In this document: positions 4,865 through 49,468 of the stretch, piece by piece
How positions within the stretch are numbered: position 1 is the first letter of the stretch
How the letters are laid out: each line of letters begins with the position of its first letter
Origin: Anaerolineales bacterium
Lineage (GTDB): Bacteria; Chloroflexota; Anaerolineae; Anaerolineales; Villigracilaceae
DNA: 49,781 nucleotides
Assembly (NCBI GenBank): GCA_030680795.1
Contig: JAUXUL010000040.1
Span: forward strand, 1-49,781
Direction: 5' to 3'
Made by a program: the position numbers and the translations under genes
The notes under the pieces: model-generated
Told to the model about the DNA's origin: nothing
The model's database searches: none
The model's input: only the letters and a program-made list of their open reading frames with translations

Positions 4865-4907
4865 CCCTCACCTTACCCTCTCCCTTCGGGAGAGGGTAAG
4901 GTGAGGG
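4865..4907. repeat. 20-bp-stem palindromic repeat in infB leader (family A)
   Basis: A perfect inverted repeat: 4865-4884 pairs base for base with 4888-4907 around a TTC loop. Key sequence CCCTCACC...CTCTCCC. It lies between ylxR and infB, 16 bases before the infB Shine-Dalgarno. A related copy is embedded in the nadA coding sequence (27566-27614). It resembles REP-type elements rather than a terminator, since no T-tract follows. Confidence 0.85.
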
Positions 4908-27002: not shown

Positions 27003-27015
27003 AAGGGGTCAGGTG

Positions 27016-27104
27016 TTCGGGTGTCAAGGTGTCGAGTGTCAAGGTGTCGAGTGTCGAGTGTCGGGGTGTCGAGTGTCAAGGTGTCGAGTGTCGGGGTGTC
27101 GAAA
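27016..27104. repeat. tandem GTGTCAAG/GTGTCGA array between nadA and nadB
   Basis: Alternating GTGTCAAG (or GTGTCGGG) and GTGTCGA units, basic period 15 bases, about eleven GTGTC cores. On the strand of the nad genes it reads as repeated TTGACAC/TCGACAC. It fills the 142-base gap together with TTGACAC-rich sequence (27108-27140) at the end of nadA. Confidence 0.75.
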
Positions 27105-27144: not shown

Positions 27145-28209
27145 TTATCCGATCTCGATCATTCTTCTTACTGCGCGTTCGGCGCGGATGCGAATATCCT
27201 CAGGGATGTCAATGATGTAACGGTCAAGTTTCAAAGCGTTGAGCGTGTCCTCCATTGTAATGGTGTTCATATGCGGACAACGTATCATGCACAGGCGCAG
27301 CATATCTTTTTCAGGGTTTGCCGCGGCAATGTTATCTCCCATGGAACATTCAGTTAAGACTAGATATTGCGGCGCTTTAGAGTCTTGCACAAACTTGATC
27401 ATGGCACTGGTGCTGCCTGAAAAATCGGAGGCGGCGGTCACTTCGGGGCTGCATTCAGGGTGCGCAAGAATGGCAACCTCGGGGAATTGCGCGCGTACGG
27501 TTTCAATATCGTTTACGGTGAATTTCTCATGCACTTCACAGCGGCCCGTCCAGCCGATCATTTTTCCCTCACCCCCTGCCCCCTCTCCCTGAGGGAGAGG
27601 GGATGGGGTGAGGGCGCGCGTCGGAAAGATAATATGCTTGCCAGTTTCACGCGCGACATTGGCAGCCAGATATTCGTCGGGTAAAAAGATGATCGTATCT
27701 GTTTTAAGTGATTCAACAACCGCCTTTGCATTTCCAGAGGTACAGCAAATATCGCTTTCGGCTTTGACATCTGCGTAGGTGTTCACATAAGTCACAATAG
27801 GCACGCCGGGGAATTTTGCTTTGAGCGCACGCACATCTGCAGCGGTGATACTTTCAGCCAGTGAACAGCCCGCTCGGTTGGAGGGTAATAAAACCTTTTT
27901 CGTCGGGTTCAGTATCTTAGCGGTCTCGCCCATGAATTTCACGCCGCAAAACACAATGATATCTTTATCGGTCTGCGCGGCTTTGCGGCTTAACTCCAGA
28001 GAGTCGCCGACAAAATCGGGGATGGAATTGAACAACGCAGCCTCCATATAGTTATGCCCCAAGATCACCGCGTTGCGTTCCTTCTTCAATTTGTTGATCT
28101 CAACTGCGATCTCTGCCTTGTAACGCAATTCTACGTCTGGAACAACATTCGCAAGTTTTTCCTTCATCCCAGCGTACATTTCATCAATATTGGTTACTTG
28201 TGAAAGCAT
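27145..28209 (-). CDS. nadA: quinolinate synthase NadA with repeat-derived insert
   Basis: NadA condenses iminoaspartate with dihydroxyacetone phosphate to quinolinate using a [4Fe-4S] cluster. Family segments: ILGHNYMEAALFNSIPDFVGDSLELSR, FCGVKFMGETAKIL, AGCSLAESI, YVNTYADVKAESDICCTSGNA, LPDEYLAANVARETGK, HPECSPEV and CPHMNTI, which include the expected cysteines. The 354 residues include an extra segment at about 197-217 (core TPSPLPQGEGAGGEG) between the conserved ARETGKHII and GRCEVHEKF. Its DNA is a family A palindrome. The frame is kept, so the enzyme may still work. AGGAG eight bases before ATG 28209. Confidence 0.95.
   Translation of the reverse strand: MLSQVTNIDEMYAGMKEKLANVVPDVELRYKAEIAVEINKLKKERNAVILGHNYMEAALFNSIPDFVGDSLELSRKAAQTDKDIIVFCGVKFMGETAKILNPTKKVLLPSNRAGCSLAESITAADVRALKAKFPGVPIVTYVNTYADVKAESDICCTSGNAKAVVESLKTDTIIFLPDEYLAANVARETGKHIIFPTRALTPSPLPQGEGAGGEGKMIGWTGRCEVHEKFTVNDIETVRAQFPEVAILAHPECSPEVTAASDFSGSTSAMIKFVQDSKAPQYLVLTECSMGDNIAAANPEKDMLRLCMIRCPHMNTITMEDTLNALKLDRYIIDIPEDIRIRAERAVRRMIEIG
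27566..27614. repeat. family A palindrome inside nadA
   Basis: CCCTCACCCC...CCCTCTCCC, TGA loop, GGGAGAGGGG...GGGGTGAGGG: imperfect 22-24-base arms, closely related to the perfect palindrome in the infB leader (4865-4907). Confidence 0.85.
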
Positions 28210-33793: not shown

Positions 33794-33887
33794 GGGAGTG
33801 GTTAGGTCCCGGTGGGCTTCCTGGTCTTCAACACCTGTGGCGGGTCGCTTTGCGGGTCGCGGTGGGTTCGACTCCCATCCACTCCCG
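33794..33887 (+). tRNA. selC: selenocysteine tRNA (UCA anticodon)
   Basis: A 94-nt tRNA with all bacterial tRNA-Sec hallmarks: 8-bp acceptor stem GGGAGTGG/CCACTCCC with discriminator G33887; 6-bp D stem AGGTCC/GGGCTT around CGGT; anticodon loop CTTCAAC giving anticodon TCA (anticodon stem CTGGT/ACCTG with one T-T mismatch); a long variable arm of about 23 bases that folds as a stem with a TTT loop; and T arm GTGGG-TTCGACT-CCCAT (5 bp). It is charged with serine, converted by SelA and delivered by SelB to UGA codons. CCA is not encoded. No selenoprotein or selA/selB gene was recognised in the window. Confidence 0.92.
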
Positions 33888-36666: not shown

Positions 36667-36690
36667 CCCTTCCCCCAAAAGGGGGAAGGG
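36667..36690. repeat. palindrome after solute-binding protein gene
   Basis: CCCTTCCCCC (36667-36676), AAAA, GGGGGAAGGG (36681-36690): perfect 10-bp stem, no T-tract. Preceded by CCCCATCCCCTG, so it resembles family A. Confidence 0.7.
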
Positions 36691-36943: not shown

Positions 36944-38122
36944 ATGAAAACTAAATCGTGGCTCTTTCCTTTTCTATTGCTCGTTGCAGCAATTGTGTAC
37001 GCCGTTCTTTCCAAAGTGCAATTACCGGGTGATGGATTCTCCACCTTTGGCGCGGATACCGTCCGCGCAGAAGTGGTGCAGATCGTGGAAGAAGGCCAGG
37101 TTGACATGGGCGGAATTCAGCAGACATACCAAATTGCGCGAGTAAACATTTTGGAAGGTGAGTATGCCGGCATCCCAATGGAAATTGATTATGGCAAACG
37201 GCAGATCCGTTCGGATGATTATCTAATGAATCCAGGCAACAAGATCATGGTCTCCATCAGCAAGACGCCGGACAATGTGGTCAATGCCTATTTTGTGGAT
37301 TACGTCCGCGCCGCGCCGATCCTCTGGCTGACAGCTATTTTTGCAATTGCCATCATCCTCATCAGCAGTTGGAAGGGGGTGCGAGCATTATTGAGTATGG
37401 CCTTCAGCTTGTACATCATTATTGGATTCATCATTCCGCACATTCTGATCGGCGAAGACCCCTTGCGTGTGAGCATCATCGGTTCGATCATTCTGTTGGC
37501 TGTGTCGCTCTACCTGACCTACGGCTGGACTTTGAAAACACATGCGGCAGTCATCAGCATGATGTTGGTTTTATTGCTGACTGGCGCGCTTTCTGGATTA
37601 TTTGTAGTCTTCGCAAAGTTGAATGGGACTGGCGATGAAAACGTGATGTTCCTGATGCAGTTGATGGAGACGCCGATCAACCTGCGCGGATTGCTGCTCG
37701 GCGGCATGATCATCGGCGCACTCGGCGTGCTGGATGACCTCGTGACGACCCAGGCCTCGGCTGTATTTGAACTGCATCATGCGAATCCAGCTCTCGGTTT
37801 TCGCAGACTCTACAATTCCGCGATGCGCATCGGGCAGGACCATGTAGCGGCTACGGTCAACACGTTGGTTTTGGCCTACGCTGGAGCGTCGCTCCCCATG
37901 CTGTTGATGTTCTCGCTTGGGCGCGGTGATTATGGTTATCTTATTAATTTTTCCTTTATCGCTGAAGAAGTGGTGCGGACTTTGGTCGGCTCATTGGGGT
38001 TGATCGCGGCTGTGCCGCTCACGACCGCCATTGCGATCTTTCTCGCTCAAAGGGCCGAGTCGCTTGGGAGGTGGGAACAGGTTCTTGGTCCCGAAGGAAG
38101 CGGGGAGGGGCATCATCATTAA
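36944..38122 (+). CDS. YibE/F family membrane protein
   Basis: A 392-residue polytopic protein. After one N-terminal helix there is an extracytoplasmic beta-type domain (about 25-120: VRAEVVQIVEEGQVDMGG, PGNKIMVSISKTPDN), then a series of hydrophobic helices including the family core GALGVLDDLVTTQASAVFEL, GQDHVAATVNTLVLAYAGASLPMLL and EEVVRTLVGSLGLIAAVPLTTAIAIFLA. YibE/F proteins are widespread membrane proteins of unknown transport role. It ends with a His-rich GEGHHH tail. Monocistronic as far as can be seen. Confidence 0.9.
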   Translation: MKTKSWLFPFLLLVAAIVYAVLSKVQLPGDGFSTFGADTVRAEVVQIVEEGQVDMGGIQQTYQIARVNILEGEYAGIPMEIDYGKRQIRSDDYLMNPGNKIMVSISKTPDNVVNAYFVDYVRAAPILWLTAIFAIAIILISSWKGVRALLSMAFSLYIIIGFIIPHILIGEDPLRVSIIGSIILLAVSLYLTYGWTLKTHAAVISMMLVLLLTGALSGLFVVFAKLNGTGDENVMFLMQLMETPINLRGLLLGGMIIGALGVLDDLVTTQASAVFELHHANPALGFRRLYNSAMRIGQDHVAATVNTLVLAYAGASLPMLLMFSLGRGDYGYLINFSFIAEEVVRTLVGSLGLIAAVPLTTAIAIFLAQRAESLGRWEQVLGPEGSGEGHHH

Positions 38123-38130
38123 CCCCTCCC

Positions 38131-38175
38131 GTCCCTTCGGGACACCCTCCCCAAATCCTTCGGATTTGGGGAGGG
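38131..38175. repeat. double hairpin repeat (family B) between YibE/F and sigma factor
   Basis: GTCCC-TTC-GGGAC (38131-38143), then a perfect 14-bp stem CCCTCCCCAAATCC (38145-38158) with GGATTTGGGGAGGG (38162-38175), TTC loop. The CTCCCCAAAT/ATTTGGGGAG arms recur in the 46.6-47.3 kb modules. Confidence 0.8.
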
Positions 38176-38242
38176 AAGGGTGGGGCGCAACTTCCCTCCG
38201 TCTCCTGCGTAAGATAAGGTAGAAAGTCAACTAAGGAGCAGC

Positions 38243-39362: not shown

Positions 39363-40414
39363 AAACGAAAACAAATTTAGTCCGCATGATCCTGTTGCTG
39401 GCATTGCTGATCCTGCCAACCAGTACTGTGTTTGCGCAAGGCCCAGGCGGAGACGTATTACTGTTTGGGCAAAACTACACGCTGGAAAGCGGAGATACGC
39501 TGGATGGAAGCCTGGCTGTGGTCGGCGGCAATGCCAAGATCGAAGAAGGCGCCACTGTGAATGGAGATATTGTCCTAGTCGGAGGAAACCTGACGATTGA
39601 TGGAGATGTCAATGGCGATGTGGCTTTAATCGGAGGAAACCTGACGATCTCCGGCAGCATAGCTGGCGATATTGTCATCGTTGGCGGTCAGGCATTGCTA
39701 ACTGAAACTGCAGTGGTCAATGGCGACATTGCCACCATCGGCGGAAGTATGGATAAGCAAACTGGCGCAATAGTAAGCGGCAGCATCACGAATAACGCGC
39801 CGCCTGTGATCAATGTGCCTGATATTCCCAATGTGCCAAATGTGCCAAATATACCTAATGTGCCGAATACGTCCGACATAAACGTCAATGTGAATCCGCT
39901 TTGGAATGCAGCCGGCAAACTCGGACAGGCCGTATTAGTGGCGCTCGTCGGTATGCTGCTCACGCTTTTCCTGCAGCCTCAATTGGAACGCGCTGGTGAC
40001 GCCATGCTGCGCCAGCCTTGGATGGCAGGCGGCTTAGGCCTGCTGGCCTTCATCGTCCTGCCCGTGGCAATTGTCATCATGACCATCACCCTGATCCTCA
40101 TCCCCATTGCTTTAATCGTGGCATTGGCCATCCCATTGGCATGGTTGTTCGGCATGGTGGCGCTCGGCCAGGAGGTCGGCGAGCGCTTTACAAAAGCCAT
40201 CAACCAGACCTGGGCGCCCGTCCTCTCCACAGGCTTTGGCACCTTCCTGCTCATGCTGGTAATCGGATTTTTAGATATGATCCCGTGTGTTGGCTGGCTG
40301 CCATCCTTCCTCGTCACCCTGGTTGCCCTTGGAGGCGTAGGAATGACCTGGTTTGGCACACACAGCGCCCCCGGGACGGTAAACCAACCAATGGAAGCGC
40401 CTCCCGCCGCTTAA
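39359..40414 (+). CDS. polymer-forming (bactofilin-like) membrane protein
   Basis: A 351-residue protein with a signal peptide (to about residue 28, STVFAQ). Residues about 40-150 are a beta-helix-like series of repeats, DGSLAVVGGNAKIEEGATVNGDIVLVGGNLTIDGDVNGDVALIGGNLTISGSI, like bactofilin/polymer-forming domains. A short Pro-Asn linker follows (NVPNVPNIPNVPNT), then four or so transmembrane helices to the end. The ATGA overlap with the anti-sigma gene and AAGGAG before it place it in the sigma operon as an output or signal partner. Function is unproven. ATG 39359 is used; 39308 lies in the anti-sigma frame region. Confidence 0.85.
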   Translation: MKTKTNLVRMILLLALLILPTSTVFAQGPGGDVLLFGQNYTLESGDTLDGSLAVVGGNAKIEEGATVNGDIVLVGGNLTIDGDVNGDVALIGGNLTISGSIAGDIVIVGGQALLTETAVVNGDIATIGGSMDKQTGAIVSGSITNNAPPVINVPDIPNVPNVPNIPNVPNTSDINVNVNPLWNAAGKLGQAVLVALVGMLLTLFLQPQLERAGDAMLRQPWMAGGLGLLAFIVLPVAIVIMTITLILIPIALIVALAIPLAWLFGMVALGQEVGERFTKAINQTWAPVLSTGFGTFLLMLVIGFLDMIPCVGWLPSFLVTLVALGGVGMTWFGTHSAPGTVNQPMEAPPAA

Positions 40415-43567: not shown

Positions 43568-44737
43568 ATGACTCAAACTTACGATACCATCATCATCGGC
43601 GCCGGCGTGATGGGCGCCAGTATTGCCTTTCACCTCGCCGAACGCGGAGTCAAAACCGTCATTCTCGAACGCAAGGCCACCGCTTCCGGCGCGACCGCGC
43701 ACTCCAGCGGACTCGTCCGCATGCATTATGACCTCGCCGCTGAGTCCGAACTTGTTTTTGCCAGTTACAAGAAATATTTTAGCAATTGGAAGGAACGAGT
43801 CGGTGGCGATTGCGGCTTCATCAACACAGGCTTCTTGAAAATCGCTACACGTGAACATGAAGATAAACTGCGCGGCAACGTCGCCAACCAACAACGCATC
43901 GGTATCAACACCTCCATTATCACCGCCGATGAGGTCAGGAAACTCTTCCCCGATATCGCCACCGACCAATTCGACTTCGCTGCCTACGAACCCGATTCAG
44001 GCTACGCCGATGCAACGCTCACCACCAACTCGTTCATCGAAGCCGCCAAACACATCGGCGCGACGTTGATTCAAAATTGCGAAGTGACCGCCATCCACAC
44101 GTCAGGCGGAAAAGTTGTCAGCGTGAGTACAACTAAAGATGACCTCTCCAGCCCAATCGTTGTCAATGCGGCGGGGGTGTGGGCGAAGCATGTCGCAAAA
44201 CTCGCCGATGTCGATATCCCGCTTGAGACGTGGACTCACGATGTGGCGTTCCTCCATCGCCCGCCGTCGCTTGGCAAAATCCCCGCGGTGATCGACGATA
44301 CCCTCAACTGTTACTTCCGCCCTGAGGGCAGTGCGCTGATCCTTGCCGCAGGCGAAGATGAAAGCCTGCGCGGCGAAGCGCCCGATGCCGAAGACCAAAC
44401 ACCCACGCCCACCTTCCTTGAAAAATTAATCGACGCGCTTGTTCAGCGCATTCCAAAAATCGAAGAGAGCGGCTTGCACTCCATCCACGTCGGGCGCGAC
44501 GGCATCACCCCCGACCAGCGCGCCATCTACAGCGCGGCGGGTCCCGACGGTTTCTATCTCGCCTGCGGTTTGAGCGGCACGGGCTTCAAGACCTCCCCCG
44601 CCGCGGGCGCAAGTTTGGTCGAGTTGATTTTGGACGGCGCGCCCAAAACCGTGGACATCACGCCCTTTCGATTCAGTCGCTTCGCCGAGGGGAAATTGCT
44701 CGAGGGCGAATATGGATATGGAAATATTTGGAAGTAG
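43568..44737 (+). CDS. FAD-dependent oxidoreductase, DAO family
   Basis: A 389-residue flavoprotein of the D-amino-acid oxidase/sarcosine oxidase/glycine oxidase superfamily. FAD-binding DTIIIGAGVMGASIAFHLAERGVKTVILERK at 4-34, then TAHSSGLVRMHYD; PIVVNAAGVWAKHVAKL in the middle; and near the C-terminus SAAGPDGFYLACGLSGTGFKTSPAAGASLVELIL. Likely oxidises an amine or amino acid; the exact substrate is not evident. Ribosome binding site GAGGAAAG precedes ATG 43568. Stands alone; a terminator follows. Confidence 0.88.
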   Translation: MTQTYDTIIIGAGVMGASIAFHLAERGVKTVILERKATASGATAHSSGLVRMHYDLAAESELVFASYKKYFSNWKERVGGDCGFINTGFLKIATREHEDKLRGNVANQQRIGINTSIITADEVRKLFPDIATDQFDFAAYEPDSGYADATLTTNSFIEAAKHIGATLIQNCEVTAIHTSGGKVVSVSTTKDDLSSPIVVNAAGVWAKHVAKLADVDIPLETWTHDVAFLHRPPSLGKIPAVIDDTLNCYFRPEGSALILAAGEDESLRGEAPDAEDQTPTPTFLEKLIDALVQRIPKIEESGLHSIHVGRDGITPDQRAIYSAAGPDGFYLACGLSGTGFKTSPAAGASLVELILDGAPKTVDITPFRFSRFAEGKLLEGEYGYGNIWK

Positions 44738-44744
44738 ATGAAAG

Positions 44745-44783
44745 ACTGCGGAGGGATTTTACAACTTCGCAGTTTTTATTTTG
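44745..44783 (+). terminator. terminator after FAD oxidoreductase
   Basis: ACTGCGGAG (44745-44753) pairs with CTTCGCAGT (44765-44773), one G-U, followed by TTTTTATTTT. Confidence 0.85.
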
Positions 44784-44895
44784 TCCCGCATCGCTTCGGA
44801 CTCAGGGGAGGGTTGATTCGGTCTCAATTAGCCAAAGTTCAGTTTCATTTGCGCAATGTTGTCACCGCTTATCAATAAAAGATTCCAATACCTCA

Positions 44896-45678
44896 TCATA
44901 TTGTCTCAACATAATCGTATAAATCTGGAAAATGGTTTTGACGCAACCTGAATTTAGTGCCGTGATTATGACCGGTCCTAGCATCGAAATCCACCAGAAT
45001 ATGCCCTTGCTTGATGCCAACAAGAAATTTTTCCAAACTAAACCCCTTAAGCATTAATATGTTTATATAATGATAAAACTCGCGACCATCAATTCGCTTT
45101 ACTTGAGCTTGAACATAAAAACAATTAAGAAGTTTTGTCCCTGCCTTATGGAACAAATCATTGAAACCCCAATATGGTTGCGGCTCAAGTTCCCCCAAGC
45201 CAACCCGTTGCTCAACTGAACGCAACCATGCAGAATGCTTTTCACTGACCGATATGGCATTAAAGGAAACTAATACTTTCTGTTGATTTTCATCGATTAC
45301 TACTTGAAAGCCGCGATCACTCCGCCCCAAGCCATGTATGGTCTGGCGAAAACTCATTTCATTTTTGGGGTAGACGCTACCTGCTTTCGTGTGTTTCCAG
45401 CCATATAAAGGCAACAATTCCAACGGGACAAATTTCATTGCTGTAGGAGATGGCTCTACATGGAAAAGCGTTGTTAATGACGATGTACCCAGCCTTTGGC
45501 ATTTTAATTCCCATTCAGATGCATTCGGAATTGGCAGGTTATTCTCTTCAATGCCAAGAAGATCCTCAAGGGTATTCCCAACTCCCCCATGATTTCCTTG
45601 CCGTGAATTAGGAACAAATCCCATTCCTCGTATCTCAACAAGCTTTGACTTGAGCTCATCTTTAGTAAATGGCTTCAT
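44896..45678 (-). CDS. type II restriction endonuclease, MvaI/BcnI family
   Basis: A 260-residue endonuclease of the monomeric MutH-like MvaI/BcnI group. The family pattern is clear: GMGFVPNSRQGNHGGVGNTLEDLLGIEENNLPIPNASEWELKCQR near the N-terminus, holding the acidic/lysine active-site motif E-x-E-L-K, and the conserved C-terminal DARTGHNHGTKFRLR. MvaI cuts CCWGG and BcnI cuts CCSGG, so a related site is likely, but specificity cannot be read here. It overlaps the methyltransferase by four bases (ATGA, 45675-45678) and is translated second, as expected for safe establishment. AT-richer than its surroundings, pointing to horizontal transfer. Confidence 0.9.
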   Translation of the reverse strand: MKPFTKDELKSKLVEIRGMGFVPNSRQGNHGGVGNTLEDLLGIEENNLPIPNASEWELKCQRLGTSSLTTLFHVEPSPTAMKFVPLELLPLYGWKHTKAGSVYPKNEMSFRQTIHGLGRSDRGFQVVIDENQQKVLVSFNAISVSEKHSAWLRSVEQRVGLGELEPQPYWGFNDLFHKAGTKLLNCFYVQAQVKRIDGREFYHYINILMLKGFSLEKFLVGIKQGHILVDFDARTGHNHGTKFRLRQNHFPDLYDYVETI

Positions 45679-46541
45679 TTTAAACTCATGCTTAACTGAA
45701 ATTTATCTCCATTAATACGTTTTACTGCTTGTTCACAATATTCGGGAGATAGATCAATTCCTATATAGTTTCTACTGAGTCTTTTTGCGGCTATCGCTGT
45801 TGTGCCAGAACCCATAAACGGGTCTAAGACGATCTGAGCTTGTGTAGACTCTATACACCTTTGGGCAAGTGCAATAGGGAATGGTGCGGGATGGGAATTG
45901 TTCATTTCTTGCACAAATTCCCAAACATCTCCCACTGCATTGGCTTTACGTGCCAATACAAATTTAGGCTTTGCAATCAAATAGATTACCTCATAAGTCG
46001 GCAAGAAATAGCCGGGGTTAAAATTAATTCCACCCTTTCTCCGCCAAATGATTATTTGGCGGACGGGAAATTCCCGAACGATGTCATGTCTGTCTTGAAG
46101 CAAACCATCTTGGACCCGCCACTTATGATTATAGAAGATTGCCCCGTCTTCTTTCAACAGGCGCATCATTTCCCGAAGGCATATTCTTTGCCATTCAACA
46201 TATTTGTCGTGTGGCATGTTATCGTCATGATGAGAATAACCCTTAACCAACGCTGCGTTTTTCCATTTTCCGCCTCTGCCATCCTTCATTCCATTTCCCG
46301 TTGAGTTTTTCAAATTATAAGGCGGAGAAGTTACGATCAAATCCAAGCTTTTATCCGGCATAGATCTCATAACATCCAAAGTATCGCCACAAATTATTTT
46401 ATTTAAAACGTCCTTAATACTGTACGTTTTTGTAATAGCTGTTTGAATATTAGGGCGAATGATATATTCAGCCTGCGCCTCTTGCGTTTTATGCATTGCA
46501 GTATTTAGTGTTTTTTTGTTAAAAGTTGATTTTGTGACCAT
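45675..46541 (-). CDS. DNA methyltransferase of the MvaI/BcnI-type system (beta class)
   Basis: A 288-residue modification enzyme. The catalytic motif IV LIVTSPPYNLKNS comes before the SAM-binding motif I VLDPFMGSGTTAIAAKRLSRNYIGIDLSPEYC, giving the beta-class order. TSPPY is typical of N4-cytosine methylases, in line with M.MvaI, although some N6-adenine enzymes also use it. It should protect the sites cut by the adjacent endonuclease. TATACT ends seven bases before ATG 46541 with no Shine-Dalgarno. Confidence 0.9.
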   Translation of the reverse strand: MVTKSTFNKKTLNTAMHKTQEAQAEYIIRPNIQTAITKTYSIKDVLNKIICGDTLDVMRSMPDKSLDLIVTSPPYNLKNSTGNGMKDGRGGKWKNAALVKGYSHHDDNMPHDKYVEWQRICLREMMRLLKEDGAIFYNHKWRVQDGLLQDRHDIVREFPVRQIIIWRRKGGINFNPGYFLPTYEVIYLIAKPKFVLARKANAVGDVWEFVQEMNNSHPAPFPIALAQRCIESTQAQIVLDPFMGSGTTAIAAKRLSRNYIGIDLSPEYCEQAVKRINGDKFQLSMSLK

Positions 46542-46548
46542 AATTCCA

Positions 46549-46554
46549 AGTATA
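46549..46554 (-). promoter_or_regulatory. -10 box of restriction-modification operon, leaderless type
   Basis: TATACT on the minus strand, seven bases (TGGAATT) before the methyltransferase ATG. No control (C) protein gene or C-box-like repeat is seen. Confidence 0.5.
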
Positions 46555-46590
46555 GCATTTTCTTTTCAGAAATTAAGATTAATATAAACA

Positions 46591-47350
46591 GAAAACGAGG
46601 CTGTGGGTGAAGGGGAGTGCGACCCCCTCTGTCCTTTGGACATCTCCCCCAAATACGACGACGAAAATTTGGGATGCAGATTCAACGATCAACTCGTCGG
46701 ATTTGGGGGAGACGTGGTGACAGGCTTTTACCTGCAAATACGACAACCAAAATTATTTATGTGGATTCGGTTTGCGTCAATGTCGGATTTGGGGGAGAAC
46801 TGTATCACGCAGATACACGTCCAAACGAAAACGGGACCGTGGGTGAAGGGCAGTCCCGTTTTTGATTCGACCTCACCCCCTCTGTCCTTCGGACATCTCC
46901 CCCAAATACGGCAATGAAAATTTGGGATGCGGATTCAAAGGTCAACTCGCCGGATTTGGGGGAGACTTGGCGATAGGCTTTTATCTGTAAACACGACAAC
47001 CAAAATTATTTATGCGGAGTCGGGATTGCGTCAATGTTGGATTTGGGGGGGAACTGTATCACGCAGATACACGTCCAAACGAAAATGGGACTGTTGGTGA
47101 AGAGCGGTGCAACCCCCTCTGTCCTTCGGACATCTCCCCCAAATACGACAACCAAAATTTGGGATGCGGAGTCAACGGTCAACTCGTCGGATTTGGGGGA
47201 GACTTGGCGATAGGCTTTTATCTGTAAACACGACAACCAAAATTATTTATGCGGAGTCGGTTTGCGTCAATGTTGGATTTGGGGGAGAACTGTATCACGC
47301 AGATACACGTCCAAACGAAAACGGGACCGTGGGTGAAGGGCAGTCCCGTT

Positions 47351-47352
<2 letters not shown>
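46591..47352. repeat. three tandem copies of a ~240-bp module
   Basis: Units begin with GAAAACG at 46591, 46827, 47081 and (final partial) 47317, giving periods of 236, 254 and 236 bases. Each unit has ACCCCCTCTGTCC-TTC-GGACA, an inverted pair CTCCCCCAAAT/ATTTGGGGGAG, a second ATTTGGGGGAG, and TATCACGCAGATACACGTCC. Inside each unit two half-units share CGACAACCAAAATT and ATGCGGAGTC, so the module is itself a diverged duplication. A hairpin GGGAC...GTCCC flanked by A and T runs (46827-46862, 47317-47352) looks like a terminator. Small open frames cross the units, but they change frame between half-units and lack ribosome binding sites, so I call the region non-coding. It fills the 845-base gap between the restriction-modification operon and ligA. 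Confidence 0.85.

Positions 47353-49468
<2,116 letters not shown>

Follow-up and report, generated by a model that had tools for sequence, protein, structure and literature searches.

A tandem palindromic array next to ligA in an Anaerolineales genome as a probable local expansion of a DUF559-linked mobile element

Introduction

An intergenic region of an Anaerolineales bacterium (Chloroflexota, family Villigracilaceae; assembly GCA_030680795.1) contains a threefold repeat at positions 46591-47352 of contig JAUXUL010000040.1. The whole stretch of 49,781 nucleotides that was analysed is called the window here. What kind of element the repeat represents, and why it stands between restriction-modification (R-M) genes and the DNA ligase gene ligA, is the question raised by this locus. 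The original prediction, made from the letters of the window, considered a tandem small-RNA array with a switchable fold, a protein-binding or recombination site tied to the R-M locus, and an expanding repeat. The last option is the one supported by the present analysis, in a much wider context; homologues of the unit are found genome-wide. With a probability of roughly 70%, the array is interpreted as the tandem triplication of a non-autonomous copy of a homing-type mobile palindromic element that is linked to DUF559 nuclease genes.

Architecture of the array

Sequence comparison bears out three near-identical tandem units at 46591-47352, and alignment likewise bears out two related half-units within each of them. 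Periods of 236, 254, and 236 had been given; these do not hold, as three units have two spacings, which are 253 and 237 bp. All features of the array are given on the plus strand unless stated otherwise. Unit 1 (46622..46874) extends from the element start ACCCCCTCTGTCC up to unit 2 and is matched by the covariance model R1 at 46615-46733 with 76.6 bits. Unit 2 (46875..47111), whose 3' hairpin is cut off, is matched at 46868-46986 with 76.8 bits, and unit 3 (47112..47352) at 47105-47223 with 80.4 bits.

According to the alignment, every unit comprises one intact palindrome, in half-unit a, and one decayed related palindrome, in half-unit b. The intact palindromes, identified from inverted pairs and alignment, lie at 46644..46711, 46897..46964, and 47134..47201 in units 1 to 3, and the left side of half-unit a carries an outer arm and a small GTCC-TTCG-GGAC hairpin. 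In half-unit b the left palindrome arm is gone. The decayed palindromes, placed by alignment, lie at 46730..46800 in unit 1 (with a weak R1 match at 46735-46791, E 0.21), 46980..47055 in unit 2, and 47217..47291 in unit 3, and are followed by a 3' tail ending in a terminator-like hairpin, AAAACGGGAC...GTCCCGTTTT. This hairpin had been ascribed to each unit; it is complete in unit 1 (46828..46862, with its arms among the inverted pairs) and in unit 3 (47318..47352, from the sequence), and it is truncated in unit 2. It is absent from the output of the consensus scan, which has a loop limit of 8, probably because its loop of about 15 exceeds that limit.

The long inverted pairs are as first described. 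In unit 1, 17 of 18 positions of CTCCCCCAAATACGACGA (46644-46661) pair with 46694-46711, and for CTCCCCCAAAT additional candidate partners are present in the second half-unit. The pairings look like a switchable fold because six copies of one palindrome stand side by side. Tandem Repeats Finder does not list the array at 46591-47352, on which ground its reading as a short-period tandem repeat was rejected. Unrelated short-period tandem repeats occur in the window at 27011-27102 and 39805-39868.

Dispersed copies in the genome and the family

A search for homologues elsewhere, which the original prediction had suggested, found them dispersed in the same genome and in relatives. With unit 1 as the query, BLAST against the own genome returned 14 rows, of which 11 fall outside the array and represent 9 places. 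The pattern CCCCCAAATNCGNC has 24 genomic occurrences, including 7 within the array, versus 0 for the reversed control. The element is built from an outer arm ACCCCC, the small hairpin GTCC-TTCG-GGAC, and a long stem CTCCCCCAAATNCGAC...GTCGNATTTGGGGGAG, and an outer right arm, e.g., GGGTGGGGG, is often present. The covariance model, built from 21 elements (12 from the own genome and 9 from the family), returned 57 rows that amount to 37 distinct places in the own genome, 34 of which are outside the array; the first look of this search scored 150 of 871 candidates. The copies are found in both orientations and lie mostly outside open reading frames. Pairing in the stem is kept despite sequence change, with 8 of the 16 consensus pairs changed on both sides. 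An extra solo copy is located in the window itself, at 38115..38196 on the plus strand (R1, 60.9 bits).

The pattern CTCCCCCN{10,40}GGGGGAG is present in 54 of 61 genomes of the bacterial family. Compared with its reversed control, it is more frequent in 54 genomes, tied in 3 (zero each), and less frequent in 4, and the totals over the 61 genomes are 425 versus 41. Palindromes of the kind that flanks DUF559 genes, CCCCTCTCC...GGAGAGGGG, occur 15 times in the own genome, with a control of 0. Those with CCCCTCTCC recur in 10 of the 15 genomes that were searched (with a single copy in one of the 10; control 0), and the exact pattern was not found in the other 5. A wider class of palindromes with outer arms, such as CCCTCTCCC...GGGAGAGGG, is represented in the window at 4876-4896, 27581-27601, and 36668-36689. 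In the genome of locus L162 (G117), CCCCTCTCC palindromes are often paired at about 50-100 bases, in a manner that is reminiscent of BIMEs.

A tandem small-RNA or switch array would account for the strong alternative pairings. The region 46400-47500 gives no Rfam match at E up to 1, and a known structured RNA or riboswitch was rejected for that reason. The element also occurs at many places and in both orientations, mostly outside frames and once in frame in a gene, which speaks against this reading, and the dispersed copies keep pairing too, which means that covariation is no specific sign of an RNA function here. A small-RNA array is therefore hardly credible, and a dispersed palindromic element is the reading followed below.

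In-frame insertion in a MobA-like gene and the peptide frame

One copy of the element is inserted in frame in a gene for a MobA-like NTP transferase (PF12804). This site was compared in 12 genomes of the genus, fetched out of 57 searched: it is filled in frame in 7, the own genome included, and uninterrupted in 5. Clear in-frame copies are held by five loci (L199, L201, L202, L203, and L209) and decayed remains by two (L200 and L207). The frame through the element stays open in the MobA-like gene. The fuller copies read PPS...DTSPKS...GFGGGRVG, which is the same frame as the ISPKYD...QLVGFGGD of the array. No target-site duplication was seen by eye at this site, the one site compared. If a frame counts as open when it extends for 40 codons or more to each side of the element, 1 of 28 distinct element places examined in the own genome (30 loci) is in frame in a recognised gene. 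One further such open frame, at L233, matches no recognised gene, and another copy, at L023, sits in a broken integrase gene.

The array itself had been credited with a short peptide frame kept in all three units. The frame does exist; in unit 1 it is shifted relative to the other two, and in units 2 and 3 GFYL is immediately followed by a stop. A comparison of synonymous and non-synonymous differences, proposed as a check, gives 2/10, 1/9, and 1/5 in the three pairwise comparisons of units, over about 26 synonymous and 85 non-synonymous sites, which means that the GFGGD peptide is not selected in the array. The peptide is the element's own stop-free frame, without purifying selection. A conserved small protein in the array was rejected because of this and of the frame shift between units.

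Neighbourhood of the array

On the minus strand, the array is preceded by an MvaI/BcnI-family restriction endonuclease gene (44896..45678; PF15515, 6.8e-59; PADLOC REase_II) and an N6/N4 DNA methyltransferase gene (45675..46541; PF01555, 8.4e-43; also found by PADLOC). It is followed on the plus strand by the NAD-dependent DNA ligase gene ligA (47387..49468). The described position between an R-M operon and ligA is correct as to adjacency; what it omits is that both genes point away from the array, which occupies a divergent intergenic region between the methyltransferase start at 46541 (minus) and the ligA start at 47387 (plus). A selenocysteine tRNA gene is also present in the window, at 33794-33886.

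This arrangement raises the possibility of a regulatory region, in which repeated promoters and hairpins would set methyltransferase expression and insulate ligA. The array fills the divergent intergenic region, and a promoter scan places one promoter-like site, TTGACG-17/18-AATAAT, in every half-unit b on the minus strand, facing the methyltransferase (46752-46780, 47005-47034, and 47242-47270). A further promoter-like site for ligA, TTGATT-18-TATAAT, lies at 47351..47380 on the plus strand and has its first hexamer at the array end; TATAATGCAA precedes ligA in the window and in 9 of 19 relatives' ligA loci. The scan found 5 promoter-like sites in the array versus 1.6 expected, and 3 of the 5 are one site repeated, which weakens the case. 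The element is also found at 34 distinct places outside the array, and its model has no match in any of the 19 relatives' ligA loci, of which two hold just 172 and 959 bases upstream of ligA. A regulatory function of the array is thus very unlikely.

The same loci bear on the idea of a site tied to the R-M locus, for which adjacency is the argument. An orthologue of the DAO gene (43568-44737 in the window) stands directly upstream of ligA in 4 of the 19 relatives, and the element is found in none of the 19. Since DAO adjoins ligA in those 4 relatives, the R-M genes and the array, which separate the two genes in the window (43568-47387), look like an insert, and the tie between array and R-M locus is one of adjacency. 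No DUF559 gene or clear relic of one was found in the window. The best candidates for a relic had E of about 0.02-0.05, which is chance-like, and were rejected; the match of L036 in the window is the palindromic element's own translation and hence no DUF559 relic.

Association of palindromes with DUF559 genes

By a fixed motif test, 31 of the 34 DUF559 loci sampled from the bacterial family have a palindrome in the 180 bases that precede the gene, and all five own-genome loci are among the positives. The 34 loci, which consist of these 5 and of 29 others (the best-scoring one per genome), were drawn from 155 DUF559 matches in 49 of 61 genomes. Three loci, L040, L042, and L055, fail the motif test and show a palindrome by eye, and they are still counted among the 3/34 failures. 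Two gene families served as controls: the upstream palindrome is found in 0 of 30 PIN-domain genes and 1 of 30 Y1_Tnp genes. Among random stretches of window positions 1-46000, 42 of 2000 pass the test. A RAYT/Y1 transposase as the partner was rejected on the basis of the 1/30 Y1_Tnp loci. Several elements are clustered in and beside a broken DUF559 gene at G000:C45:6744-7908 (L004, L008).

A sequence-blind folding test agrees, with a median z of -2.58 upstream of family DUF559 genes versus 0.24 for PIN genes (p 2e-7; 29 of 34 DUF559 and 27 of 30 PIN loci kept). Downstream, the palindrome is found in 10 of the 34 family loci and the folding difference from PIN is not significant (p 0.08), which indicates that flanking is mainly one-sided in this family.

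The association extends to named DUF559 loci in other lineages. These loci, the best 80 among 568 candidates that were confirmed, are skewed to Bacteroidota (47); they also include Chloroflexota, Proteobacteria, Cyanobacteria, candidate phyla, a Methanophagales archaeon, and others. In these best 80 of 568, a palindrome with a pyrimidine arm is present on at least one side in 55, of which 35 have it on both; upstream it occurs in 42 and downstream in 48, and distant stretches of the same loci have it in 16 of 1275. None was detected by this test at 25 of the 80, 22 of which are among the 47 Bacteroidota. Folding of the same 80 gives z of -0.69 upstream (p 2e-5) and -1.47 downstream (p 3e-13) versus -0.09 for the distant stretches, with 76 and 79 of the 80 flanks kept.

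It may be asked whether the palindromes spread by other means, such as replication slippage, an unidentified transposase, or template switching at hairpins, with DUF559 as a passenger for which they serve as landing pads and as linkers that host genes tolerate. Genomes without DUF559 still hold palindromes (G018 9, G036 6, and G038 6), from which it follows that copies can persist or spread without DUF559, and in the own genome 37 element places far exceed 5 DUF559 genes. Against a passenger role, the link is specific among the two control families tested (PIN 0/30, Y1_Tnp 1/30), and the palindrome count rises with the DUF559 count over 61 genomes (Spearman 0.60, with kinship ignored and fragments counted). 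A passenger role for DUF559 is considered rather unlikely, and a role of DUF559 in palindrome movement is preferred. In the excerpts obtained from open-licence PubMed Central literature on DUF559 or in-frame palindromic repeats, no paper linking DUF559 to palindromes was found.

DUF559 inside conserved genes

Of the best 80 of 568 DUF559 matches, 33 belong to frames longer than 300 aa, and in one of these, L162, a stop interrupts the match. Pfam identifies host domains around DUF559 in all 12 long ORFs tested: LeuRS (3), HisF, MetH, RecJ, RuvC, HsdR, methylmalonyl-CoA mutase, an AMP-binding enzyme that is acetyl-CoA synthetase-like according to Pfam, and two R-M enzymes. In the family of the window's bacterium, DUF559 with palindromes is also seen inside ORFs of 1207 and 1470 aa (L065 and L068).

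In 13 Bacteroidota loci among the best 80 of 568, DUF559 is located in LeuRS, ahead of the editing domain (L104, L105, L114, L117, L124, L125, L130, L131, L142, L144, L154, L167, and L176). For L131, L117, and L104 the host was assigned by Pfam, and for the other ten by eye from a conserved motif. In L131 the left and right palindromes are, by eye, mutually inverted and have outer arms. In 21 Bacteroidota genomes, all of them picked for having DUF559 somewhere and 7 of them already known as filled, the LeuRS site is filled in 9, without insert in 9, occupied by a relic in 1, and not classifiable in 2. The relic, judged by eye, is a short palindrome-like stretch in G134 (L255). Pedobacter species differ among themselves at this site; one of the loci scored as insert-free, L262 of Pedobacter chinensis (G125), carries about 14 additional residues of a different sequence, which may be a repeat of another kind. 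The filled and absent states were compared for LeuRS, and the evidence from the other host genes is their embedding of DUF559. What is observed at the LeuRS site is compatible with either order of events, and to this extent they also suit a passenger DUF559.

The DUF559 nuclease and its relatives

The DUF559 profile matches the endonuclease-like protein PDB 3hrl (3.6e-39) and PDB 3r3p, a "Mobile intron protein" (1.5e-5), which is presumably I-Bth0305I. The latter is described as an EDxHD homing endonuclease in the cited excerpt (PMC3943268), and a DUF559 gene is assigned to the EDxHD homing family in an excerpt of another paper (PMC9403480). The Caulobacter DUF559 protein VsrA (CCNA_02930) has been studied as a Vsr-like repair nuclease (PMC12907096, in part), and Legionella mutation and recombination hotspots include segments with transposase and DUF559, as stated in an excerpt of PMC12308824. 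DUF559 as a known defence gene was rejected: L037 has no PADLOC match and L039 has three weak ones, the best of which is named homing endonuclease (E 9e-5).

Comparison with known systems

Rickettsia palindromic elements (RPEs) and in-frame MITEs are described in the excerpts consulted as about 100-150 bp long, both intergenic and in-frame, and encoding a stop-free peptide (PMC2229807, PMC10969869). The present elements are like them by description, and RPEs sit in other phyla. Unlike RPEs, for which no partner nuclease is named in these excerpts (PMC2229807, PMC10969869), the palindromes described here are accompanied by a specific nuclease gene, DUF559. The target-site duplication of RPEs is listed as "?" in the part of PMC2229807 consulted.

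REP/REPIN sequences and their RAYT genes offer a second parallel: palindromes flank the gene, solo copies are dispersed, and the palindrome number tracks the gene number (PMC2817692, from an excerpt). In contrast to REP/RAYT, the partner is the DUF559 nuclease and not a Y1 HUH transposase, whose genes have the palindrome in 1 of 30 Y1_Tnp loci, and the present elements also enter conserved genes in frame. In combining palindromes with a partner nuclease the element resembles REP/RAYT, and in having palindromes in frame it resembles RPEs, but its partner gene differs from RAYT and from RPE descriptions.

EDxHD (Vsr-like) homing endonucleases such as I-Bth0305I provide a third, through the 3r3p profile match, insertion at a fixed site, and the coexistence of filled and empty alleles. 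Unlike EDxHD homing elements, the insert stays in an open frame, its ends are palindromes, and DUF559 is a single short domain; the comparison with introns and inteins draws on Pfam scans of the embedding ORFs. Caulobacter VsrA (CCNA_02930) shares DUF559, is a proposed mismatch-repair nuclease, and palindromes are not mentioned in the excerpt of the paper on it (PMC12907096).

Proposed mechanism

The evidence is comparative throughout: dispersal, in-frame insertion, the DUF559 linkage, and the filled and empty states are established, and cutting, homing, and the origin of the array are inferred. In the mechanism put forward here, movement of the palindromes would be driven by DUF559. The nuclease may cleave either an empty allele or a solitary palindrome, and a copy that bears DUF559 would then serve as the repair template, so that palindrome-DUF559-palindrome is installed. 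Loss of the DUF559 gene would leave a solo palindrome, and the solo palindromes would be both the remnants of the element and its targets. Within a host gene, the element would be read through as a short stop-free linker, instead of being removed by splicing in the manner of an intron or intein. As for the present locus, the element may have arrived between the DAO gene and ligA, either together with an R-M operon or next to one, and the array would then have grown by unequal exchange or repair slippage.

A broader proposal, to which even odds are given, is that a widespread unnamed class of mobile elements may exist, in which a Vsr/EDxHD-like DUF559 gene framed by inverted palindromes homes into conserved bacterial and archaeal genes and remains unspliced. 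Such elements would survive unspliced in host genes because their ends provide linkers that are in frame and free of stops. The common solo palindromes of many genomes whose arms are GGAGAGGGG or GGGGGAG would be their non-autonomous offspring and landing sites, and the array in the window would be a local expansion of them.

Implications

If this is true, a common class of bacterial interspersed palindromes would gain a driver and a lifestyle, and the presence of nuclease domains and low-complexity linkers inside LeuRS, MetH, and HisF would be explained. The spread of protein-coding palindromes such as the Rickettsia RPEs, which is an old question, would become testable, and the DUF559-linked elements would represent a case of homing without splicing.
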